IMG/VR virus record: IMGVR_UViG_3300044859_002168
Location: 1-64,000 of that record
From: a virus
DNA: 64,000 nt
Reading direction: 5' to 3' (one strand)
This document shows positions 29,426 to 50,595 of the stretch, piece by piece. The position numbers were made by a program, and so were the translations under genes. Within the stretch, counting starts at the first letter, position 1; every line of letters begins with the position of its first letter. Under the pieces are notes generated by a model. The model did no database searches. It saw only the letters and a program-made list of their open reading frames with translations, and was not told where the DNA came from.

Positions 29426-29455
29426 AAAACCCGAAGATTTTTTTCTTCGGGTTTT
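29426..29455 (-). terminator. Rho-independent terminator of the large RNA
   Basis: Minus strand AAAACCCGAAG, A/T loop, CTTCGGGTTTT continuing into more T. Stem of about 11 bp. Confidence 0.85.
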
Positions 29456-30384
29456 GGCACTTAGGTTGAGAATACACCTTTGATTGAGAATCTTTAGGAA
29501 CATTATTGTTTCTTTCCGTTTCCACTATCTTTTGAATAGTAATTCTCAGTGACGGTTCCTTAGGGGTACCACTCCTTGAGTTGTAGCTTACTCTCTTTTT
29601 ACTTATTACTCTCCGAGGTTGCCACCCCAGTGAATCCTTGCGGGATTAGAGAACGTTCTCAAGAATCGTGTGGGTCTTGGAAACCCACAACGGCAATGAA
29701 CATCTCATTACTATGTAGTCACCTTTCACCTACAACTGACGGACACTTTTCCTTTGTCTTTTAGTATTTGCATACCTATAAAATGCAAAGTTTGTTGTTT
29801 GTGGATGGATGAAAGTAGTGGTCCGCCGACCAGCCAAGCCATCTTTTGAACGACTCGATACTATACTACTCTCTGAGATATCCCTACCTCAACACTTCAA
29901 GACTACTTCGTGACTTATGTCTTGGTAGACAATGGTCAAGGATGATTTCGGCACCACCCGTTTGTCATCATACCTTTCGGTTTTAAGTATCCTTTGATAT
30001 TGAATCCCGCAGTTATAAGGTTGGATTACCCTATTTCCCACAACAATTCTACGAGTTATTCTTATTGTTCTTCCGAACTCAACCCAACGACCCACATCGC
30101 TGAGTCATATTTCCATTTCATCTACAGTGTCACCCTCGATTACTTAGGACTTATGATATCCCGCTTGCCTACTCGAGTTAATAAAACCGAAGTTTTAAAA
30201 ACCGCAATCTCTTTTAAACTTGAGAGACCACTTTATCCCACTTTCGTGGTTTATTTATCGACCATAGGCGGCCGATTATCTTTTCTCAGTATTTTCTCAA
30301 AATCAACCCAAGGGTCTCATCATCAACATACTGATGGAATAATCAATAATTTAAAGAACGTTTCAGTTTCCTGATTTGTTATAC
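29426..30384 (-). ncRNA. Candidate large structured non-coding RNA (~0.96 kb)
   Basis: This is the only gene-free kilobase in the window, yet it has an exact host-type promoter at one end (30384-30413) and a strong terminator at the other (29426-29455), both for the minus strand. No frame gives a convincing protein. Local hairpins are frequent: TTTGCAT/ATGCAAA (29767-29789), TGGTC/GACCA with a 4-nt loop (29819-29832), TGTGGGT/ACCCACA (29669-29689), TGTAG/CTACA near 29720, and a stem near 29633-29647 that on the minus strand can close a GCAA (GNRA) tetraloop. Position next to a phage tRNA and size recall the large ornate phage RNAs GOLLD and ROOL. I cannot assign the class without a covariance search. 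Confidence 0.6.
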
Positions 30385-30413
30385 AAAGATACAACAGTTT
30401 TTCATTCTGTCAA
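30384..30413 (-). promoter_or_regulatory. Bacteroidota-type promoter of the large RNA
   Basis: Minus strand TTG (30413-30411) within TTGACA, 19 nt, TATCTTTG (30391-30384). The 20 bases at 30375-30394 are the same as at the 25958 promoter. Confidence 0.85.
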
Positions 30414-30433
30414 GCACCTTCGTGTTTTTTTTG

Positions 30434-30506
30434 TAGCGGGAGAGGGAATCGAACCCCCGACCTCAAGGTTATGAGCCTTGCGAGCTACCGCTGCTACTAT
30501 CCCGCG
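30434..30506 (-). tRNA. tRNA-Met (CAT), initiator-like
   Basis: A 73-nt cloverleaf on the minus strand. Anticodon loop CTCATAA with stem CAAGG/CCTTG; T-arm GGGGG-TTCGATT-CCCTC; D-stem AGC/GCT; acceptor GCGGGA/TCCCGC. The first base is C facing T72, a mismatch typical of initiator tRNAs, and the D-stem has the A11-T24 pair. Only two of the three initiator G-C anticodon-stem pairs are present. CCA is not encoded. It lies between a promoter at 30622 and the large RNA. An ORF drawn across it (30402-30644) is spurious. Confidence 0.9.
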
Positions 30507-30530
30507 ATTTATTTTTAAGAACGTTCCCCG

Positions 30531-30621: not shown

Positions 30622-30652
30622 CAAAGATAAAACAATTTTTTCAAATTGTCAA
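30622..30652 (-). promoter_or_regulatory. Bacteroidota-type promoter of the tRNA
   Basis: Minus strand TTG (30652-30650) within TTGACA, 20 nt, TATCTTTG (30629-30622). Confidence 0.75.
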
Positions 30653-40332: not shown

Positions 40333-43300
40333 TTAAAGTAATCTTTTTTCTTTCGCCTTTACTACAAGTTTTTGAGCTCTGTCTTCAATTGAGTTAATAA
40401 TAACTTCTTGCTCTTTTAAAGCTTCAATACACACGGCAATCATCTCTTTGTATTTCATGGTGTAGTGTTTTTCTTCACTACCAGATACAAGTTCAGGGAA
40501 ATATGGTAAAACTTCTTGAGCAATAAAACCAATGTTTTTATGTCCAAGTTTTTCTTTATCATCCCAATTATAATAGAATTCAACACCACGAATTTTAATT
40601 AAATTTTCAAGTGCAGATTCAATAGGTTCAATGTTTGTCTTTAATCTAATGTCGGATGGTCCTGTAGGTCCTGTAGCACCTTGTGCACCCGTATTACCCG
40701 TGGCTCCTTGTGCTCCTGTAGCACCTTGAGCACCAAAAGTAGAACCTGCCTTTCCTTGAGCACCTGTAGGTCCTTGAGCACCACCTGCACCAGGTCCTTG
40801 AGCACCTGTTGCACCTTGGGAACCTGTAGGTGCGGTACCTGGAAAACCTTGAGCACCTTGAGCACCCGCACCTTCAGAAGGAAAACCTTGAGCACCTTGT
40901 GTACCAACCGCACCTTGAGCACCTTGTCCTCCTTGTGGTCCTTGAGCACCTTGTGGTCCTTGAGTTCCTTGTCCACCCGCAGCACCTGTTGAGCCACCTC
41001 CACCCTGAGAACCTTGTCCTCCTTGAGTACCCTGAGCACCTTGTCCTCCCTGAGCTCCTTGTGAACCTTGTCCTCCTTGAGTACCTTGAGCACCTTGACC
41101 TCCTTGAGAACCTTGTGAACCTTGAGCACCTGTAGAGCCACCTCCACCTTGCGAACCTTGTCCTCCCTGAGCTCCTTGTGAACCTGTAGCACCTCCACCA
41201 CCAGCACCACCTTGCGAACCTTGTCCTCCTTGAGCTCCTTGTGAACCTGTTGCACCTCCACCGCCAGTTCCTCCTTGAGCACCTTGTCCTCCTGTTGGTC
41301 CTGTGGCACCTTTACCTCCTTGTGAACCTTGTCCTCCTTGTGAACCTTGTCCTCCTGTTGGTCCTGTGTCACCTTTACCTCCTTGTGAACCTTGTCCTCC
41401 TTGTGAACCTTGTCCTCCTGTAGACCCCTGAGCACCTTGAGCACCTTGTCCTCCTTGTGAACCTTGAGCACCTTTACCACCTTGAGAACCTTGAGAACCT
41501 GTAGCACCTCCACCACCAGTCCCACCTTGAGAACCTTGACCTCCTTGTGAACCTTGTGAACCTTGAGCACCTGTGGAACCACCTCCACCTTGAGAACCTT
41601 GACCTCCTTGTGAACCTTGAGCACCACCTCCACCTTGAGAACCTTGACCTCCTTGAGTTCCTTGTCCTCCTTGAGAACCTTGTCCTCCTTGTCCTCCTTG
41701 AGTACCTTGTGAACCTTGAGCACCCTGACTACCAACACCACCTATCGAACCTTGAGCTCCCTGACCACCTTGAGTACCTTGGAAACCTTGTCCTCCTTGA
41801 GCCCCTTGATTACCTGTTGCTCCTTGTGAACCGGTCGCTCCTTGGAAACCTTGTCCACCCTGAGCTCCTTGGGAACCAACCGCACCTTGAGAACCTTGTC
41901 CTCCTTGAGAACCTTGTCCTCCTTGTGAACCGACCGCTCCTTGCGAACCTTGCCCTCCTTGAACACCCTGAGCACCTTGTCCTCCTTGAGAACCTGTAGC
42001 ACCTTGAGAACCCTGTCCTCCTTGAGTACCCTGAGCACCTTGTCCTCCTTGAGAACCTTGTGAACCAACCGCACCTTGTGAACCTTGAGCTCCCTGTACT
42101 CCTTGACCTCCTTGAGCACCTTGACCTCCTTGAGCACCTTGACCTCCTTGAGAACCTTGAACTCCTTGACCCCCTTGAGCTCCTTGTGAACCTATATTAC
42201 CTTGAGTTCCTTGAGTTCCTTGAGCTCCTTGTCCTCCTTGAGAACCTACAGGACCTTGAGCACCTTGTCCTCCCTGAGTTCCCTGAACACCTTGACCTCC
42301 TTGAGAACCTTGTGAACCTATATTACCTTGAGCACCCTGTCCTCCTTGAGCACCCTGTCCTCCTTGAGAACCTTGTCCTCCTTGTCCTCCTTGAGTACCT
42401 TGTGAACCTTGAGCCCCTTGACCTCCTTGAGCCCCAAGTGAACCAAGACTACCTTGTGAACCTTGACCTCCTTGAGTACCCTGTCCTCCTTGAGCGCCAA
42501 CAGCTCCTTGTGAACCTTGACCTCCTTGAGTACCTTGAGCACCTTGTCCTCCTTGAGCACCTTGAGCTCCAATAGAACCTTGAGCTCCAATAGCACCTTG
42601 CGAACCTTGTCCCCCTTGAGCACCTTGATTACCTGTTGCTCCTTGTGAACCAACCGCACCTTGAGCACCTTGTCCCCCTTGAGCACCTTGATTACCTGTT
42701 GCTCCTTGTGAACCAACCGCACCTTGTGAACCTTGTCCTCCCTGAGTACCTTGTGAACCTGTATTACCTTGAGCTCCAATAGGACCTTGAACACCCTGAG
42801 CGCCTTTAGCTCCTACATTACCTTGACTTCCTTGGCTTCCTTGACCTCCTTGAGCACCTTGACCTCCTTGAGCACCTTGCGAACCTACAGGACCTAAAAA
42901 TCCTTGAGAACCTTGAGCGCCATCCGCACCTACCGAACCTTGAGCACCTATACTACCTTGAGAACCTTGAGCACCCTGAGCTCCTTGTCCTCCTTGAGAA
43001 CCTTGTGAACCTATATTACCCTGAGAACCTTGAGCACCCTGAGCTCCTTGTCCCCCTTGTGAACCCTGTCCTCCCTGAGTACCTTGTGCTCCTTGAGTAC
43101 CTTGTGAACCCTGTCCTCCCTGAGTACCTTGTGAACCTACACTACCAACAGCACCTTGTGAACCTTGTCCCCCTTGAGAACCCTGTCCTCCTTGAGTACC
43201 TTGTGAACCTTGAGGTCCTTTTCCACCTTGAGCACCTTGTCCTCCTTGAGAACCAACATTACCTGTTGCACCTTGTGAACCAACATTACCTTGAGCACCT

Positions 43301-43632
43301 TTACCACCTTGAGAACCCTGAGCTCCCGCAGCACCTTGAGAACCCTGAGCTCCCGCAGCACCCTGAGCTCCTGTTGGTCCGGTATTTGCTGTACCCGTCC
43401 AAAGAGCATTATTAACTACCGTACCTGCAGTTGTTGCAATAGTACTAAAAACATAAAGATTGTTAAAAAACAACCTAAATTTAGGTGAGGTATTAATAAC
43501 TTTAAAATAAACAGTAGTACTGACTTTCCAATCAAGTACAGCACTGGAGTAAACCCAAGTTGCCTTAGTATTATTTGTATCATACAACTCAACAGTTGCA
43601 CTACCTGGTAATATAATGATATCCTTAGCCAC
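40333..43632 (-). CDS. Collagen-like fibre protein with S74 chaperone domain (copy 1)
   Basis: 1099 aa. An N-terminal beta domain (about 1-88) is followed by roughly 900 residues of uninterrupted Gly-X-Y repeats, dominated by [12 protein letters not shown] and GGQGSQ. The C-terminal ~107 residues begin [11 protein letters not shown] and match the peptidase S74 intramolecular chaperone: [48 protein letters not shown] and a final coiled coil. S74 domains fold the trimer, then cleave before the Ser of SD. This is a trimeric fibre, probably tail or head decoration for adhesion. It overlaps the next copy by 8 nt. Pro is rare in the Y position, so triple-helix stability must come from Gln. Confidence 0.9.
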
Positions 43633-46600
43633 CTATTTTTGTACTTAAATCTTTAAGAAAATTATTCAACACTTCAACTCTTTTTTGGTTTTCAATTAAT
43701 GCTGATACACCAACCGAAACCAATAGTTCATATTGTAAATTCTTATAACCATATTTATCTGTCCAAACTAAATCTGGATATTTTTCTTCAATTTCTTGAG
43801 CAATAAATCCAAGATTCGTACCTGTAATTAGATATCTGTACTCTGGTAAATAATCTGATAATTGAGGAATGTCCTCAACCCAATCAAATTTAACACCTCT
43901 CATGCTAACAATGTTTTGTCTAACGTTTGTGAGAGGTTTAATATTTGTTTTATATCTGGCATCTGACGGTGGTCCTTGAGCACCTGTGGCACCTTGAGCA
44001 CCTTGTGGTCCTTTACCACCTTGAGCACCTGTACCTCCACTCGGTCCTTTTGCACCTTGAGAACCCTCAGCACCTTGAGCTCCGTTACCACTCGGTCCTT
44101 TTGTACCTTGAGCACCTTGTGAACCTTGTCCTCCTCCAGGTCCTTTTGGTCCTTGAGCACCTTGTGGGCCTGGCGTTGGTGGACCAATTGACCCTGCAGC
44201 ACCTATAGTTCCTTGAGCTCCTGTATTTCCCGTGGAACCTGTATTTCCCGCAGCACCTTGAGCACCCTGAGTAGAACTCGCGCTACCTTGAGCACCTTGG
44301 GCTCCTTGAGCTCCTGTATTAGCACCCTGAGCACCTTGTGCTCCTTGAGTTGTACTATTAGCTCCCTGAGCACCTGTATTACCTTGAGCACCTGTTGCAC
44401 CTTGAGTAGAACCTTGAGCTCCTTGAGCTCCTGTGGAACCTCCACCACCTTGTGAACCCTGAGCACCTGTAACACTACTTTGAGCTCCTTGAGCACCTTG
44501 TCCTCCTTGAGAACCTTGACCTCCTTGTGCACCTTGTACAGAACTTTGAGCTCCTTGAGCACCTTGTCCTCCTTGAGAACCTTGACCTCCTTGTGCACCT
44601 GTACTAGCCCCTTGAGCTCCTTGTGAACCCTGAGCACCTTGGGCACCTGTAGCACCTTGAGCTCCTGTACTAGCCCCTTGAGCTCCTTGTGAACCCTGAG
44701 CACCTTGTTTACCCGTAGCTCCTTGGTCACCTTGAACCGAACTTTGAGCACCCTGAGCACCTTGTCCACCTTGAGCACCTTGACCACCTTGAGCACCTGT
44801 ATTAGCACCTTGAGCTCCTTGTGCACCTGTTGAACCTCCACCACCTTGGGAACCCTGAGCACCTGTCACACTACTTTGAGCACCAGTACTTCCTTGTGAA
44901 CCCTGAGCACCTGTACTTCCTTGAGCACCTGTAGGTCCTCCTTGAGCACCTTGTGCTCCTTGAGAACCTTGTTTACCAACAGCACCTTGAGCACCTGTAA
45001 CTCCTCCTTGAGGACCTTGAGTACCTTGAGCACCTGTATTACCTGTAGCTCCTTGAGCGCCCGTATTACCTCCTTGAGCACCTGTACTACCTTGAGTACC
45101 TTGGGCTCCTTGAGCACCTTGGGCTCCTGTGTTAGCTCCTTGTGCCCCTTGTGCTCCTTGAGCTCCTTGAGCTCCTGTACTACCTTGAGCTCCTGTAACA
45201 CCACCTTGAGCTCCTTGAGCACCTTGAGCTCCCGTATTACCTGTGGCACCTTGAGCTCCCGTGGTTCCACCTTGAGCTCCTTGAGCACCTTGAGCTCCCG
45301 TATTACCTGTGGCACCTTGAGCTCCCGTGGTTCCACCTTGAGCTCCTTGAGCTCCTTGTCCTCCTTGAGCACCTGTAACTCCCGTAGCACCCGCAGTACC
45401 TCCTTGAGCACCTATATTACCTTGGGCACCTGTATTACCTGTCGCACCTTGGGCACCCTGTACAGAACTTTGTGCACCTTGAGCTCCTTGAGCTCCTTGT
45501 GAACCTGTATTACCTTGAGCACCTTGAGAAGCTCCTTGAGCTCCTTGAGCTCCTTGAGCACCTGTATTACCTGTAGCACCTTGAGCACCTTGGACGGAAC
45601 TTTGAGCTCCTTGAGCTCCTTGAGCTCCTTGAGCACCCGTACTACCTTGAGCACCTGTAACACCACCTTGAGCTCCTTGAGCACCTTGGGCACCTTGTTT
45701 ACCTATAGCTCCTTGAGCACCTGTACTAGCACCTTGAGCTCCTTGGAATCCTTGAGCACCTTGAGCACCCGTACTACCTTGAGCACCTGTAACACCACCT
45801 TGAGCTCCTTGAGCACCTTGAGCACCCGTGTTTCCTGTAGCACCTTGAGCACCTGTGACACTACTTTGAGCACCCACAGAACCTTGAGCACCTTGGGCTC
45901 CTTGAGCCCCTTGAGCTCCTGTGTTAGCTCCCTGAGCACCTTGAGCTCCTTTAGGTCCTTGAGCACCTTGAGCACCTTGAGCACCTGTATTAGCACCCTG
46001 AGCACCTTGGGAACCTGTTGGTCCTTGAGCTCCCTGAGCTCCTTGAGCTCCCGTACTAGCACCTTGAGCTCCTTGAGCTCCTTGTCCACCTTGTGAACCT
46101 TGCCCACCTTGAGCACCAGGAGTATCATCCGTACTACCCTGAGTACCTTGGGCTCCTTGTGCACCTGTACTACCTTGAGCTCCTGTACTCGCACCTTGAG
46201 CTCCCTGAGCACCTGTTGGTCCTTGAGAACCTTGTGCACCTGTTGGTCCGATTACAATACTCGCAGTTCCTTGACTACCTTGGGCACCTTGGGCACCTGT
46301 ATTACCTTGAGCACCCGTGCTAGCACCTTGAGCACCTTGGGCACCCTGAGCACCTTGGGCACCTGTATTACCTTGAGCACCTTGTGTGGAACTGTTAGCA
46401 CCTTGAGTTCCTTGAGCACCTTGGGCACCCGTTTTTCCTTGAGCACCTTGGACTGAACTTTGAGCACCTTGAGTACCTTGTGCACCTTGAGCTCCCTGAG
46501 CACCTGTATTACCTTGAGCTCCCGTACTAGCGCCCTGTGCACCTTGAGCACCTTGTGTACCCTGAGCTCCTTGAGCACCTGTGTTAGCCCCTTGGGCTCC

Positions 46601-47032
46601 CTGTCCACCTTGTGTACCTTGAGCACCTTGTCCTCCCTGAGAACCTTGAGCCCCTTGTGCTCCTTGGGGTCCTTGTGTACCTTGAGCTCCTGTTGGTCCT
46701 TGTGTACCTTGAGCTCCTTGAGCTCCTTTAATATTGGCTTGTGAACCTATCCATTCTCCAAGGTAGTTAATAATCTGAACATATGTAGAACTACCATCCC
46801 ACGCGTAAATACCTTCACCACTACTTAGGTCATTAACAGAAAAACCTTTAGAAGTGACTGCTTGAGTACCAATACTACCTACAGAAGAATCTGTGGATGA
46901 TGAAAATGTTAAATCACCATTAGCATTAACTTTTTGAACCAACTGATTACCAGTGGCATCCTCATAAATAATAAAAGGTACACCACCTGAAAAGGTGTTA
47001 CCTGAAGGGTATATTATAATATCATTAGCCAT
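43625..47032 (-). CDS. Collagen-like fibre protein with S74 chaperone domain (copy 2)
   Basis: 1135 aa. N-terminal beta domain (about 1-100), then about 900 residues of Gly-X-Y built mainly from [12 protein letters not shown] and GANTGAQ with short interruptions such as ASTGAQ and SSVQ, and a C-terminal S74 domain starting [11 protein letters not shown] at about 1024, with [12 protein letters not shown] and [20 protein letters not shown]. The frequent SSVQ/STGAQ breaks are regularly spaced and would give flexible kinks. The N-terminal domain differs from copies 1 and 3, suggesting different attachment points. Confidence 0.9.
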
Positions 47033-50000
47033 TAGTAATTCTCAATATATTCCTCTAACATAGTTAATCTTTCATCAACAGATGCAATGTTATTTTGATG
47101 TTCTTTAATACCTTCCACTAAATATGCATTAAGTTGCGGATAAAGGATATAGTAATATCCATTTTCTCTCATTCTTACCACTTCAGGGATGTGTTCTCTA
47201 ACTTGTTGAGCAACAAATCCTAAAGAGTGTGTTTTGTTATTTTGAAGGTAATAATCATATTCAGGAGTATTTTCTGTCCAATCAAACTCAACAGGTTGTA
47301 ACATCATCAATTTTGTTAATGAGCCCTCTAAAGTTATAACTTCATTTTTAAGTCTTAAATCTGAGAAACAACATACCAACGTACAAGTTACATCTACAGT
47401 GGCTTGATACTCCGCTATTACCAAATTAATAAGACTATCACAACCAGAACAGTCATCTATATCATAAACTTTATCATTTGAGGTACAGTTAGGCATCATC
47501 ACATTCGAGTAAACATTTGGCATTCCCATCGGCGCTAGAAAATCACAATCTGGAAATAATCCAACAAAACCAACATCATAACACGCAGGTGCTGCTGGAG
47601 GCCCTGTCGCTCCTTGAGCACCTTGAGCTCCTTGAGGACCTTGTGTACCTGTTGCACCTTGGGCTCCTTGAAGACCTTGACCTCCTGTTTGTCCTTGAGC
47701 CCCTTGTGCACCAGGTGAACCAGGAATACCCGTACCACCTTGAGCCCCTTGAGCTCCTGTATTACCAACACTACCATTCACACCTTGAGCCCCTTGAGAA
47801 CCTTGCGACGGCAATCCGTCAGGACCTTGAGCGCCTTGTCCTCCGGTAGCACCTTGAGCACCAGGACTAATTCCTGTACCTCCTTGAGAACCTTGTCCTC
47901 CTGTTGGTCCAAAACCTCCTTGAGCACCTTGAGCACCTGTACTACCTTGAGGTCCAAGATTACCAGTATTACCTGTAGGTCCTTTACCACCTTGAGCACC
48001 TTGTGAACCTGTGTCACCTCCACCACCTGTGGGACCAACCGCACCTACAGAACCTACACCACCTTGAGAACCCTGAGCACCCGTGGAACCTTGAGGTCCT
48101 ATATTACCCGTAGCACCTGCATTACCTTGTGCTCCGGTATTACCTGTATTACCTTGAGGTCCTATATTACCCGTAGCACCTTGAGGTCCTTGTGCCCCGG
48201 TATTACCTGTATTACCTTGAGCTCCTGAATGACCTGTAGCGCCCTGAGCTCCTGTGGAACCTCCTCCACCAATAGCACCTTGTGCACCTGAATGACCTGT
48301 AGCACCCTGAGCTCCTGTGGAACCTCCTCCACCAATAGCACCTTGTGCACCGGTGTGTCCTTGAGCACCTGTGTTACCTTGTGAACCTACAGGTCCTGTA
48401 GCACCTGTCGGACCTATATTACCTTGAGCTCCCGTATTACCTTGAGCTCCCGTATTTCCTGTGGCACCTTGAGCACCTGTATGTCCTGTTGCACCGGCAC
48501 CACCTTGAGAACCTTGAGCTCCTGTAGAACCCTGTGGTCCTATGGCACCTGTATTACCTTGAGCACCCGTGGAACCTTGAAGTCCTGTTGCACCTTGTGG
48601 TCCTACCGCTCCTTGAGCTCCTTCATTACCAAATACACCTGTAGGTCCTGTAGCACCTTGTGGTCCTATTGGTCCTTGAGCACCTGTTGAACCTTGAGAA
48701 CCTTGTGGTCCCGTGGCTCCTTGAGGTCCAATAGACCCCGTACCACCCTGAGCACCTTGTGCACCTGTGTTTCCTGTTGCACCTTGAGCACCCGTGTTTC
48801 CTGTTGCACCCGTGTTTCCTGTTGCACCTTGTGGTCCCGTAGCACCTTGTGGTCCAATATTACCTTGAGCACCTGTTGAACCTTGAGAACCTGTTGGTCC
48901 TGTTGCACCTTGTGGTCCAATATTACCTTGAGCACCCGTTGAACCTTGAGAACCTTGTGGTCCGATGGCACCTTGTGGTCCGATATTACCTTGAGCACCC
49001 GTTGGTCCTTGAGCTCCTTGTGGACCTTTAGGTCCTTGTGGGCCAATTGACCCTTGGCTTCCTGTATTACCTTGAGAACCTGTTGGCCCTATATTTCCTG
49101 TCGGTCCAAGGTTACCTTGAGCACCGGTATTACCTTGAGCACCTTGTGGTCCTATATTACCTTGTGCACCTGTATTACCTTGAGCACCCGTTGAACCTTG
49201 AGAACCTGTTGGCCCTATATTCCCTGTGGGTCCAAGATTACCTTGAGCACCTATATTACCTTGAGCACCAACGTTACCTACATTACCTTGAAGTCCCACC
49301 GCTCCTTGAGCACCTTCATTACCAAATACACCGGTGTTACCAGTCGCTCCTTGAGCTCCTGTATTACCTTGAGCCCCTTGTGGTCCTTGAGCACCTTGTG
49401 GCCCCGTATTTCCTTGTGGTCCTAAAGCACCTTGAGCACCTGTATTACCTTGTGAACCCGTTGGTCCTGTAGCACCTGTTGGTCCTACAGCACCTTGTGC
49501 ACCTATATTACCTTGTGCACCCGTATTACCCGTGGCTCCTTGTGCTCCTGTATGTCCCGTGTTACCTTGAGCCCCTTGTGCACCAGTATTACCCGTAGCT
49601 CCCTGAGCACCTGTATGTCCTGTATTACCTTGAGCCCCTTGAGCACCGGTATTACCCGTGGCTCCTTGAGCACCTGTATTACCCTGAGCACCTGTATTAC
49701 CCTGAGCACCTGTATTACCCTGAGCACCTGGAGGACCAATAGGTCCTTGTGCACCTGTATTACCTTGTGCACCCGTATTACCCGTAGAACCTTGAGCTCC
49801 TGTATTGCCCGTAGAACCTTGTTTACCTTGAGCCCCTTGGTCTCCTTGAGCACCTTGGTTACCAATTTTACCTTGAGCACCTATAGCTCCTTGAGCACCT
49901 GTATTACCTGCAGCTCCTTGAGCACCTGTGTTACCTTGAGCACCTATGTTACCCTGTGCACCCGTTGGTCCTTGAGCTCCTGTAAGTCCTTGAGCTCCTT

Positions 50001-50595
50001 GAGCCCCGATATTACCCTGTGCACCCGTTGGTCCTACCGCACCTGTTGGCCCAATATTACCTGTTGCACCCTGTGCTCCGGTATTACCTTGAGCACCTGT
50101 ATTTCCTACGGCTCCTTGAGCACCTGTATTACCAATGTTACCTTGAGCACCTGTATTACCCGTAGCTCCTTGAGCACCTGTGTGTCCTGTATTGCCTTGA
50201 GCACCTTGAGCACCAACGTTTCCTTGAGCACCTGTATTACCCACATTACCCTGAGCACCAATATTACCTGTATTACCCTGAGCACCAGTATTACCCGTAG
50301 CGCCTTGAGCTCCAACAATATTTGTAGTTGGACCTACCCATCCTTTAGTACCATTTAAAACTTGAACACCATTAACAGATAAATTATCCGTAACGTTAAG
50401 ATTTCTAATAGTAAATTCGGTATCAGATAATTTGAATATTGTGTTAACTCCGACAATCCATTGGAAACTTGTTGTTGAACCACCTGTGGCAACCACACGA
50501 CCTGTCATTGATGCTGTTCCACCATCAAAATAAAAATAAGGAACTGTTATACTTGAACCATCCCCCTCGGGATAAATAGTAATATTTTTAGGCAT
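47032..50595 (-). CDS. Collagen-like fibre protein with S74 chaperone domain (copy 3)
   Basis: 1187 aa. N-terminal domain (about 1-90), then roughly 900 residues of Gly-X-Y with [12 protein letters not shown] and GPTG units, richer in Pro than the other copies (GPTG, GPQG). Residues about 1000-1077 are a Cys-rich insert (PDCDFL, DDCSGCD, CTLVCCF) absent in copies 1 and 2, followed by the S74 domain [15 protein letters not shown] and [25 protein letters not shown] box lies about 20 nt before the ATG, so this gene heads the three-gene fibre operon. The Cys insert could form disulphides or bind metal at the tip. Confidence 0.9.

Follow-up and report, generated by a model that had tools for sequence, protein, structure and literature searches.

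GOLLD and ROOL are classes of giant noncoding RNA, both of them known near tRNA islands (PMC12286853). The solved GOLLD RNA, env-38, is a hollow 14-mer cage with a disordered linker inside, and its gene was described downstream of a Met-tRNA; the same study reports a GC/CG switch of the L21a palindrome across the GOLLD family, and mentions a ribosome pull-down for GOLLD (PMC12286853). The GOLLD of a Lactobacillus brevis prophage accumulates in lytic growth (cited in PMC7567579; PMC12286853), and is reported in PMC7567579 to be dispensable for phage production. A different set of long untranslated transcripts, those of the rRNA operons, is shielded from Rho-dependent termination by the boxA element, which works through NusB, NusE (S10) and further Nus factors (PMC4807359). 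In Legionella, a boxA of sequence GTTCTTTAAAA inserted upstream of a synthetic CRISPR array raised transcript levels about tenfold (PMC7862264).

A full-length GOLLD in a phage genome

The window analyzed here, a 64,000-nt stretch of a virus record of 89,853 bases, contains a gene-free stretch of 0.95 kb that a first-pass annotation, made from the sequence alone, had taken for a member or a new class of giant phage RNA such as GOLLD or ROOL. The covariance model of Rfam GOLLD (RF02032) matched its minus strand with 318.8 bits (E=1.8e-90; the Rfam gathering cut-off for GOLLD is 150 bits), and all 416 model positions were aligned from end to end, indicating that the GOLLD 3' domain is complete. 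The match to this curated model settles the identity of the stretch as a genuine full-length member of the known class GOLLD. Of the Rfam models that had been proposed for the minus strand, ROOL (RF03087), group II, HEARO and OLE gave no match in the stretch, and a scan at lax thresholds yielded, besides GOLLD, only the tRNA as a convincing hit. The features of the locus are listed in Table 1. Its neighbors in the window encode a NUDIX hydrolase, a DUF192 protein, an endolysin-like protein and long collagen-repeat proteins that end in a chaperone-of-endosialidase domain. Three successive genes at 40333-50595 (-) encode proteins of about 1,100-1,190 aa that contain collagen-like repeats and are probably fibers; the product of 47032-50595, the one of the three that was tested, matched Collagen and carries a C-terminal Peptidase_S74 chaperone domain.

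Table 1. Features of the GOLLD locus and its tRNA neighbor, in window coordinates
Feature	Position	Strand	Remarks
GOLLD transcript	about 30378 to 29420	-	~955 nt; promoter, 5' domain, linker, conserved 3' domain, terminator
GOLLD promoter, Bacteroidota type	30384..30413	-	TTG(ACAGAATGAAAAACTGTTG)TATCTTTG; spacing 19, exact; predicted start near 30378
Hairpin TCAG-GAAA-CTGA	30363..30374	-	boxB-like position, between promoter and boxA; fold -4.3 kcal/mol
boxA-like antitermination element	30351..30359	-	GTTCTTTAA
Structured 5' domain	29874..30277	-	likened to the cap domain of the solved structure; outside the Rfam model
GNRA-capped hairpin CCAC-GAAA-GTGG	30238..30249	-	GAAA in 48/48; covariation at 3 of 4 stem pairs
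Conserved 3' domain	29463..29873	-	RF02032 positions 1-416
Variable A-rich linker	29746..29811	-	low conservation and gaps in the alignment; no tRNA inside
Hairpin ATCC-CGCAA-GGAT	29634..29646	-	counterpart of the L21a self-kissing loop (bridge B8 of the published cage)
Intrinsic terminator	29426..29455	-	12-bp stem AAAACCCGAAGA..TCTTCGGGTTTT and T-rich tail
tRNA-Met(CAU), initiator-like	30433..30506	-	C1xU72, A11:U24; about 20 nt upstream of the GOLLD promoter
Separate tRNA promoter	30622..30652	-	TTGACA, spacer 20, TATCTTTG

The RNA resembles env-38 in its full-model 3' domain, its separate and more variable 5' domain, its A-rich linker, its GAAA loops, the counterpart of self-kissing loop L21a with a GC/CG palindrome, and its location in a phage genome with a Met-tRNA upstream. 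Among the differences, the clade of the window has a host-type promoter and an rRNA-type boxA leader, which we found undescribed in the literature searched; moreover, the tRNA lies beside the linker-bearing RNA rather than in the linker, and a multimer is here only predicted. The L21a hairpin was equated with its counterpart by order and sequence rather than by structural superposition, and its palindrome reads GC in 47 of 48 aligned sequences and CG in the remaining one (L133). Three GOLLDs of other clades (L143, L146 and L147) carry a tRNA (Lys, Leu, Gln) within the linker, in agreement with published accounts of the class. The window RNA is also like ROOL in being a giant RNA of the phage and plasmid type, often near tRNAs and cage-forming (an 8-mer in ROOL; a cage inferred for the window), and differs from it in lacking an RF03087 match and in having a boxA, which the Lactobacillus salivarius ROOL leader does not.

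Three pattern scans of viral contigs, together with profile searches, recovered 123 GOLLD loci of the same clade, 97 of them near full length and 69 distinct. Several represent the same phage (100% identical), while others fall to about 55% identity with the window, and a GOLLD of this clade is also present in the genomes of two huge phages (635 and 642 kb). An exact pattern for the clade, which misses variants, had 0 matches in 84,980 cellular species genomes, suggesting that the phages bearing these RNAs do not integrate. Covariance model searches in one Clostridia-type phylum (398 genomes for GOLLD and 149 for ROOL) gave no match, and the control was likewise unmatched.

The fold was assessed on an alignment of 48 diverse full-length sequences, for which RNAalifold proposed 206 pairs, 134 of them with compensatory double changes. 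When a doubtful pairing that involves the boxA-like block was left out, 199 pairs remained, 134 of them doubly changed, and 97.2% of the alignment cells at these pairs could form a standard pair. Slid controls gave 38-44% of cells paired and 40-59 doubly changed pairs, and shuffled controls gave 86 doubly changed pairs (sd 3.9), none reaching the observed 134. The compensatory changes were found at 76 of 110 pairs in the 5' domain and at 58 of 89 in the 3' domain; because the 5' domain is absent from the Rfam model, its covariation is independent support for the part of the molecule beyond that model. The many local hairpins that had been noticed in the single sequence are far above chance among its relatives, the GNRA-capped stem is conserved, and the covariation that had been called for is present.

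The same comparison bears on whether the stretch might code for protein in a small or antisense open reading frame that was overlooked. An antisense frame of 126 codons does exist at 29994-30374 (+), and the antisense frames of the relatives are slightly longer than those in shuffled sequence (median of the longest frames in 69 relatives, 82 codons, against 68). The sense frames, with a median of 68 codons, are however no longer than shuffled ones, in line with the absence of a credible ORF noted in the first-pass annotation, and the coding signal in homologs that it had named as grounds for rejecting an RNA did not appear in the open-frame lengths. Indels among the relatives break the frame, covariation extends over the full length of the RNA, and the stretch matches a curated RNA family. 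We thus rejected the coding explanation, which retains next to no probability.

Both ends of the transcript had also been predicted. The exact promoter at the 5' end is of a type that lies no more than 130 nt upstream of the RNA in 61 of the 69 distinct relatives, which agrees with the proposed expression from a host promoter and, judged from the promoter type, points to a Bacteroidota host. The further proposal that expression is for this reason early found no support: the window has 10 promoters of this type, where shuffling gives an expectation of 1.3, and a type so widespread in the phage does not single out early genes; the L. brevis GOLLD, moreover, accumulates in lytic growth. The strong terminator seen at the other end is present as a 12-bp stem; a terminator scan was by itself at chance level (1 found, 1.1 expected), and near relatives retain terminators at this place. 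A conserved string, ATGGAGC(C/A)ACCGG(T/C)AAAAA, was observed between GOLLD and the terminator in many relatives (for example L095, L038 and L008), 20-40 nt after GOLLD.

A boxA-like block in the leader

Of 69 relatives, 67 have a single GTTCTTT(G/A)A among the first 40 nt of the RNA as aligned. All 48 aligned sequences agree in the first seven columns of this block; the leader has 89 further columns (mean identity 60%), each of which varies, and the sequence around the block differs between groups. The 9-mer alone is not rare (8 copies in the window, 2.2 expected), so that its weight comes from position and conservation and not from rarity. In a pattern scan that selected operons by this string itself, more than 20 Bacteroidota operons had it immediately ahead of 23S or 16S. 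Because that set was chosen by the boxA string, a second draw of Bacteroidota 16S genes was made without it, and the string was present in 10 of 16 16S leaders (counting operons with at least 400 nt upstream) and in 7 of 13 16S-23S spacers.

The block thus shares with the boxA of rRNA operons its core GTTCTTTGA, its place after a promoter, and its position before a long, structured and untranslated RNA, and the identical string is found in Bacteroidota operons. It differs in that the RNA it precedes is not ribosomal, that Nus binding is putative, and that an upstream hairpin is present in only some of the GOLLD leaders. This hairpin, which the window has, precedes boxA in about two thirds of the distinct leaders, with changing stem sequences, and a boxB-like hairpin as universal companion of boxA was accordingly discarded. 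The boxA described for CRISPR arrays (Stringer et al., cited in PMC7862264) likewise leads a long noncoding transcript other than rRNA, and the window copy, GTTCTTTAAA, has 10 of 11 bases in common with it; GOLLD, in contrast, is a phage gene for a structural RNA. In L143, a GOLLD from another clade, CGTTCTTTAACATAA occurs at the equivalent place in the leader, following a sigma70-type promoter (TTGACA-17-TATAGT).

It is conceivable that the GTTCTTTGA block is instead part of the GOLLD fold, a strand paired with UCAAGGA of the 3' domain that closes the molecule. RNAalifold does pair alignment columns 19-25 with columns 935-941 in most sequences, but this helix shows no covariation, and one of its pairs is broken in 6 of 48 sequences. 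L143 keeps its boxA with no 7-nt complement in the stretch searched, five relatives of the main clade also lack such a complement, and in the solved structure the 5' and 3' regions form separate domains (PMC12286853). A structural strand, furthermore, would not need to be identical to an rRNA boxA. We consider internal pairing unlikely for these reasons, and favor a boxA function of the block, which is likely from its position, conservation and rRNA counterparts.

The element is not shared by all giant RNAs. The strict boxA pattern is absent from the other-clade GOLLDs L144, L146, L147, L150 and L152, and boxA was found neither in the leader of the L. salivarius (pMP118) ROOL nor in the ICP1 noncoding RNA, which had no GOLLD match in Rfam. 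BoxA is therefore not required by giant RNAs in general, and the pMP118 and ICP1 RNAs do not support the idea that it is a general mark of them. Another string, TTAAAGAATT, was noted near the 5' end of the boxA-less GOLLDs L144 and L146 and of the ICP1 noncoding RNA (L319 14000-15250, -), and is possibly a common 5' element. In the huge phage LR745206 (L279 1820-1988), a second leader of promoter, hairpin and boxA stands before another tRNA-like gene, and boxA leaders may thus serve further stable RNAs of these phages. In the window, the tRNA-Met has in its own transcript leader, immediately ahead of the gene, the string GTTCTTAAAA at 30515-30524 (-), which is boxA-like but lacks one T.

We found no paper joining boxA with GOLLD or ROOL in a literature search that covered neither the original class descriptions of 2009 and 2017 nor most subscription papers. 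The boxA leader, and the recurrent initiator-type tRNA neighbor described below, are apparently new beyond the published descriptions that we found, although their novelty is not proven.

The tRNA beside GOLLD

The phage tRNA that the first-pass annotation had placed next to the RNA proved to be a tRNA-Met(CAU) gene. It resembles bacterial tRNA-fMet in its CAU anticodon, in A11:U24, in a GGCTCATAACC arm and in a 1:72 position that is not a Watson-Crick pair; it differs in having an extra D-arm base, a CCA end that is not encoded, and an anticodon stem of A29:U41, G30:C40 and G31:C39. Since one of the three consecutive G:C pairs of the anticodon stem is missing, we call this tRNA initiator-like only.

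Among the relatives, tRNA genes within 1.5 kb of a GOLLD of this clade were nearly always of the same kind: 41 of 42 were tRNA-Met(CAU), all on the GOLLD strand and mostly of initiator type, compared to 9 of 99 among the more distant tRNAs of the same stretches. A11:U24 is present in 14 of 17 distinct neighbor tRNAs, 11 with a 1:72 mismatch and 3 with an A-U pair, and the remaining three are aberrant. The tRNA-Met lies either 21 to about 400 nt upstream of GOLLD or 11-26 nt downstream, and in the downstream form it is probably co-transcribed with GOLLD, as judged from the lack of a terminator between the two. The huge phage LR745206 has a tRNA-fMet first, followed by hairpin, boxA and GOLLD. 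A maximum-likelihood tree requires at least 8 changes of arrangement, and the downstream form arose at least 5 times by well-supported branches. Just after the GOLLD of L039, TAGAAGT..GGTTCAAGTCC..ACTTCTA resembles a tRNA reduced by shortening or decay to its acceptor stem and T arm, and in L007, L023 and L040 GOLLD is immediately followed by an aberrant CAU tRNA-like gene (ATAGCAGGGGGGAGG...) whose acceptor stem is poor.

These neighbors might reflect only the way in which phages commonly gather tRNA genes and giant RNAs into one region, a habit with no functional link to initiation. The known proximity of GOLLD and ROOL to tRNA islands (PMC12286853) is consistent with such a habit, as are the 47 of 68 relatives that have no tRNA within 1.5 kb, and the phage isolates phi4:1, Lak-B1, Serratia BF and Caulobacter RB23, in which a similar tRNA-Met is present and GOLLD is not beside it. 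A general habit would not by itself predict that the near neighbors are almost exclusively Met(CAU) genes on the GOLLD strand while the distant tRNAs are mostly others, nor that Met(CAU) genes recur both upstream and downstream of the RNA. We regard the two sides as evenly balanced. Because the counts represent non-independent events, and so many relatives have no nearby tRNA, we treat a functional link between GOLLD and the tRNA as hypothetical.

Transcription, assembly and a possible role in translation

As read from its sequence, this RNA belongs to the GOLLD family, shares a conserved fold of two domains, and has a host-type promoter of its own that is directly followed by a conserved boxA. 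The explanation that we favor overall, with a probability of roughly 0.7, is that it is a Bacteroidota-phage GOLLD of ~955 nt that uses boxA antitermination, forms a cage, and possibly has a role in translation. Host RNA polymerase would start at the Bacteroidota-type promoter, and boxA on the nascent RNA would bind host NusB and ribosomal protein S10. The polymerase modified by Nus factors could then pass the long, untranslated and structured gene, as it does in rRNA operons, and continue to the terminator. By analogy with those operons, it is reasonably likely that NusB and S10 at boxA keep the polymerase going through the GOLLD gene. The finished RNA would fold into a homo-oligomeric cage with the A-rich linker inside, and assembly of the published type is highly probable by comparison with the solved relative, which has 14 chains.

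What the cage does is a more speculative matter. During infection it may act on the translation machinery, for example as a holder or buffer of ribosomal particles or of initiator tRNA. Both the tRNA neighbor and the ribosome pull-down mentioned for GOLLD (PMC12286853) suggest a connection with ribosomes or initiation, and a role at the translation machinery would explain the recurring initiator-type tRNA genes beside GOLLD. This is the most likely role that we can propose, and it is nevertheless a rather doubtful one. We advance, tentatively and as something that may well be wrong, the broader view that GOLLDs of Bacteroidota phages are transcribed like rRNA through host boxA and Nus factors and are genetically coupled to the phage initiator tRNA, which would point to a role of the cage at translation initiation.

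If this is true, GOLLD would join rRNA and CRISPR arrays among the classes of long noncoding RNA that boxA and Nus factors control, and the boxA leader suggests how a phage may spare a long untranslated RNA from Rho-dependent termination. For GOLLD, whose cage has been solved, the two-domain alignment, the promoter map, boxA and the tRNA neighbor offer a direct approach to the factors that transcribe it, and to a possible connection of its cargo or target with translation initiation.
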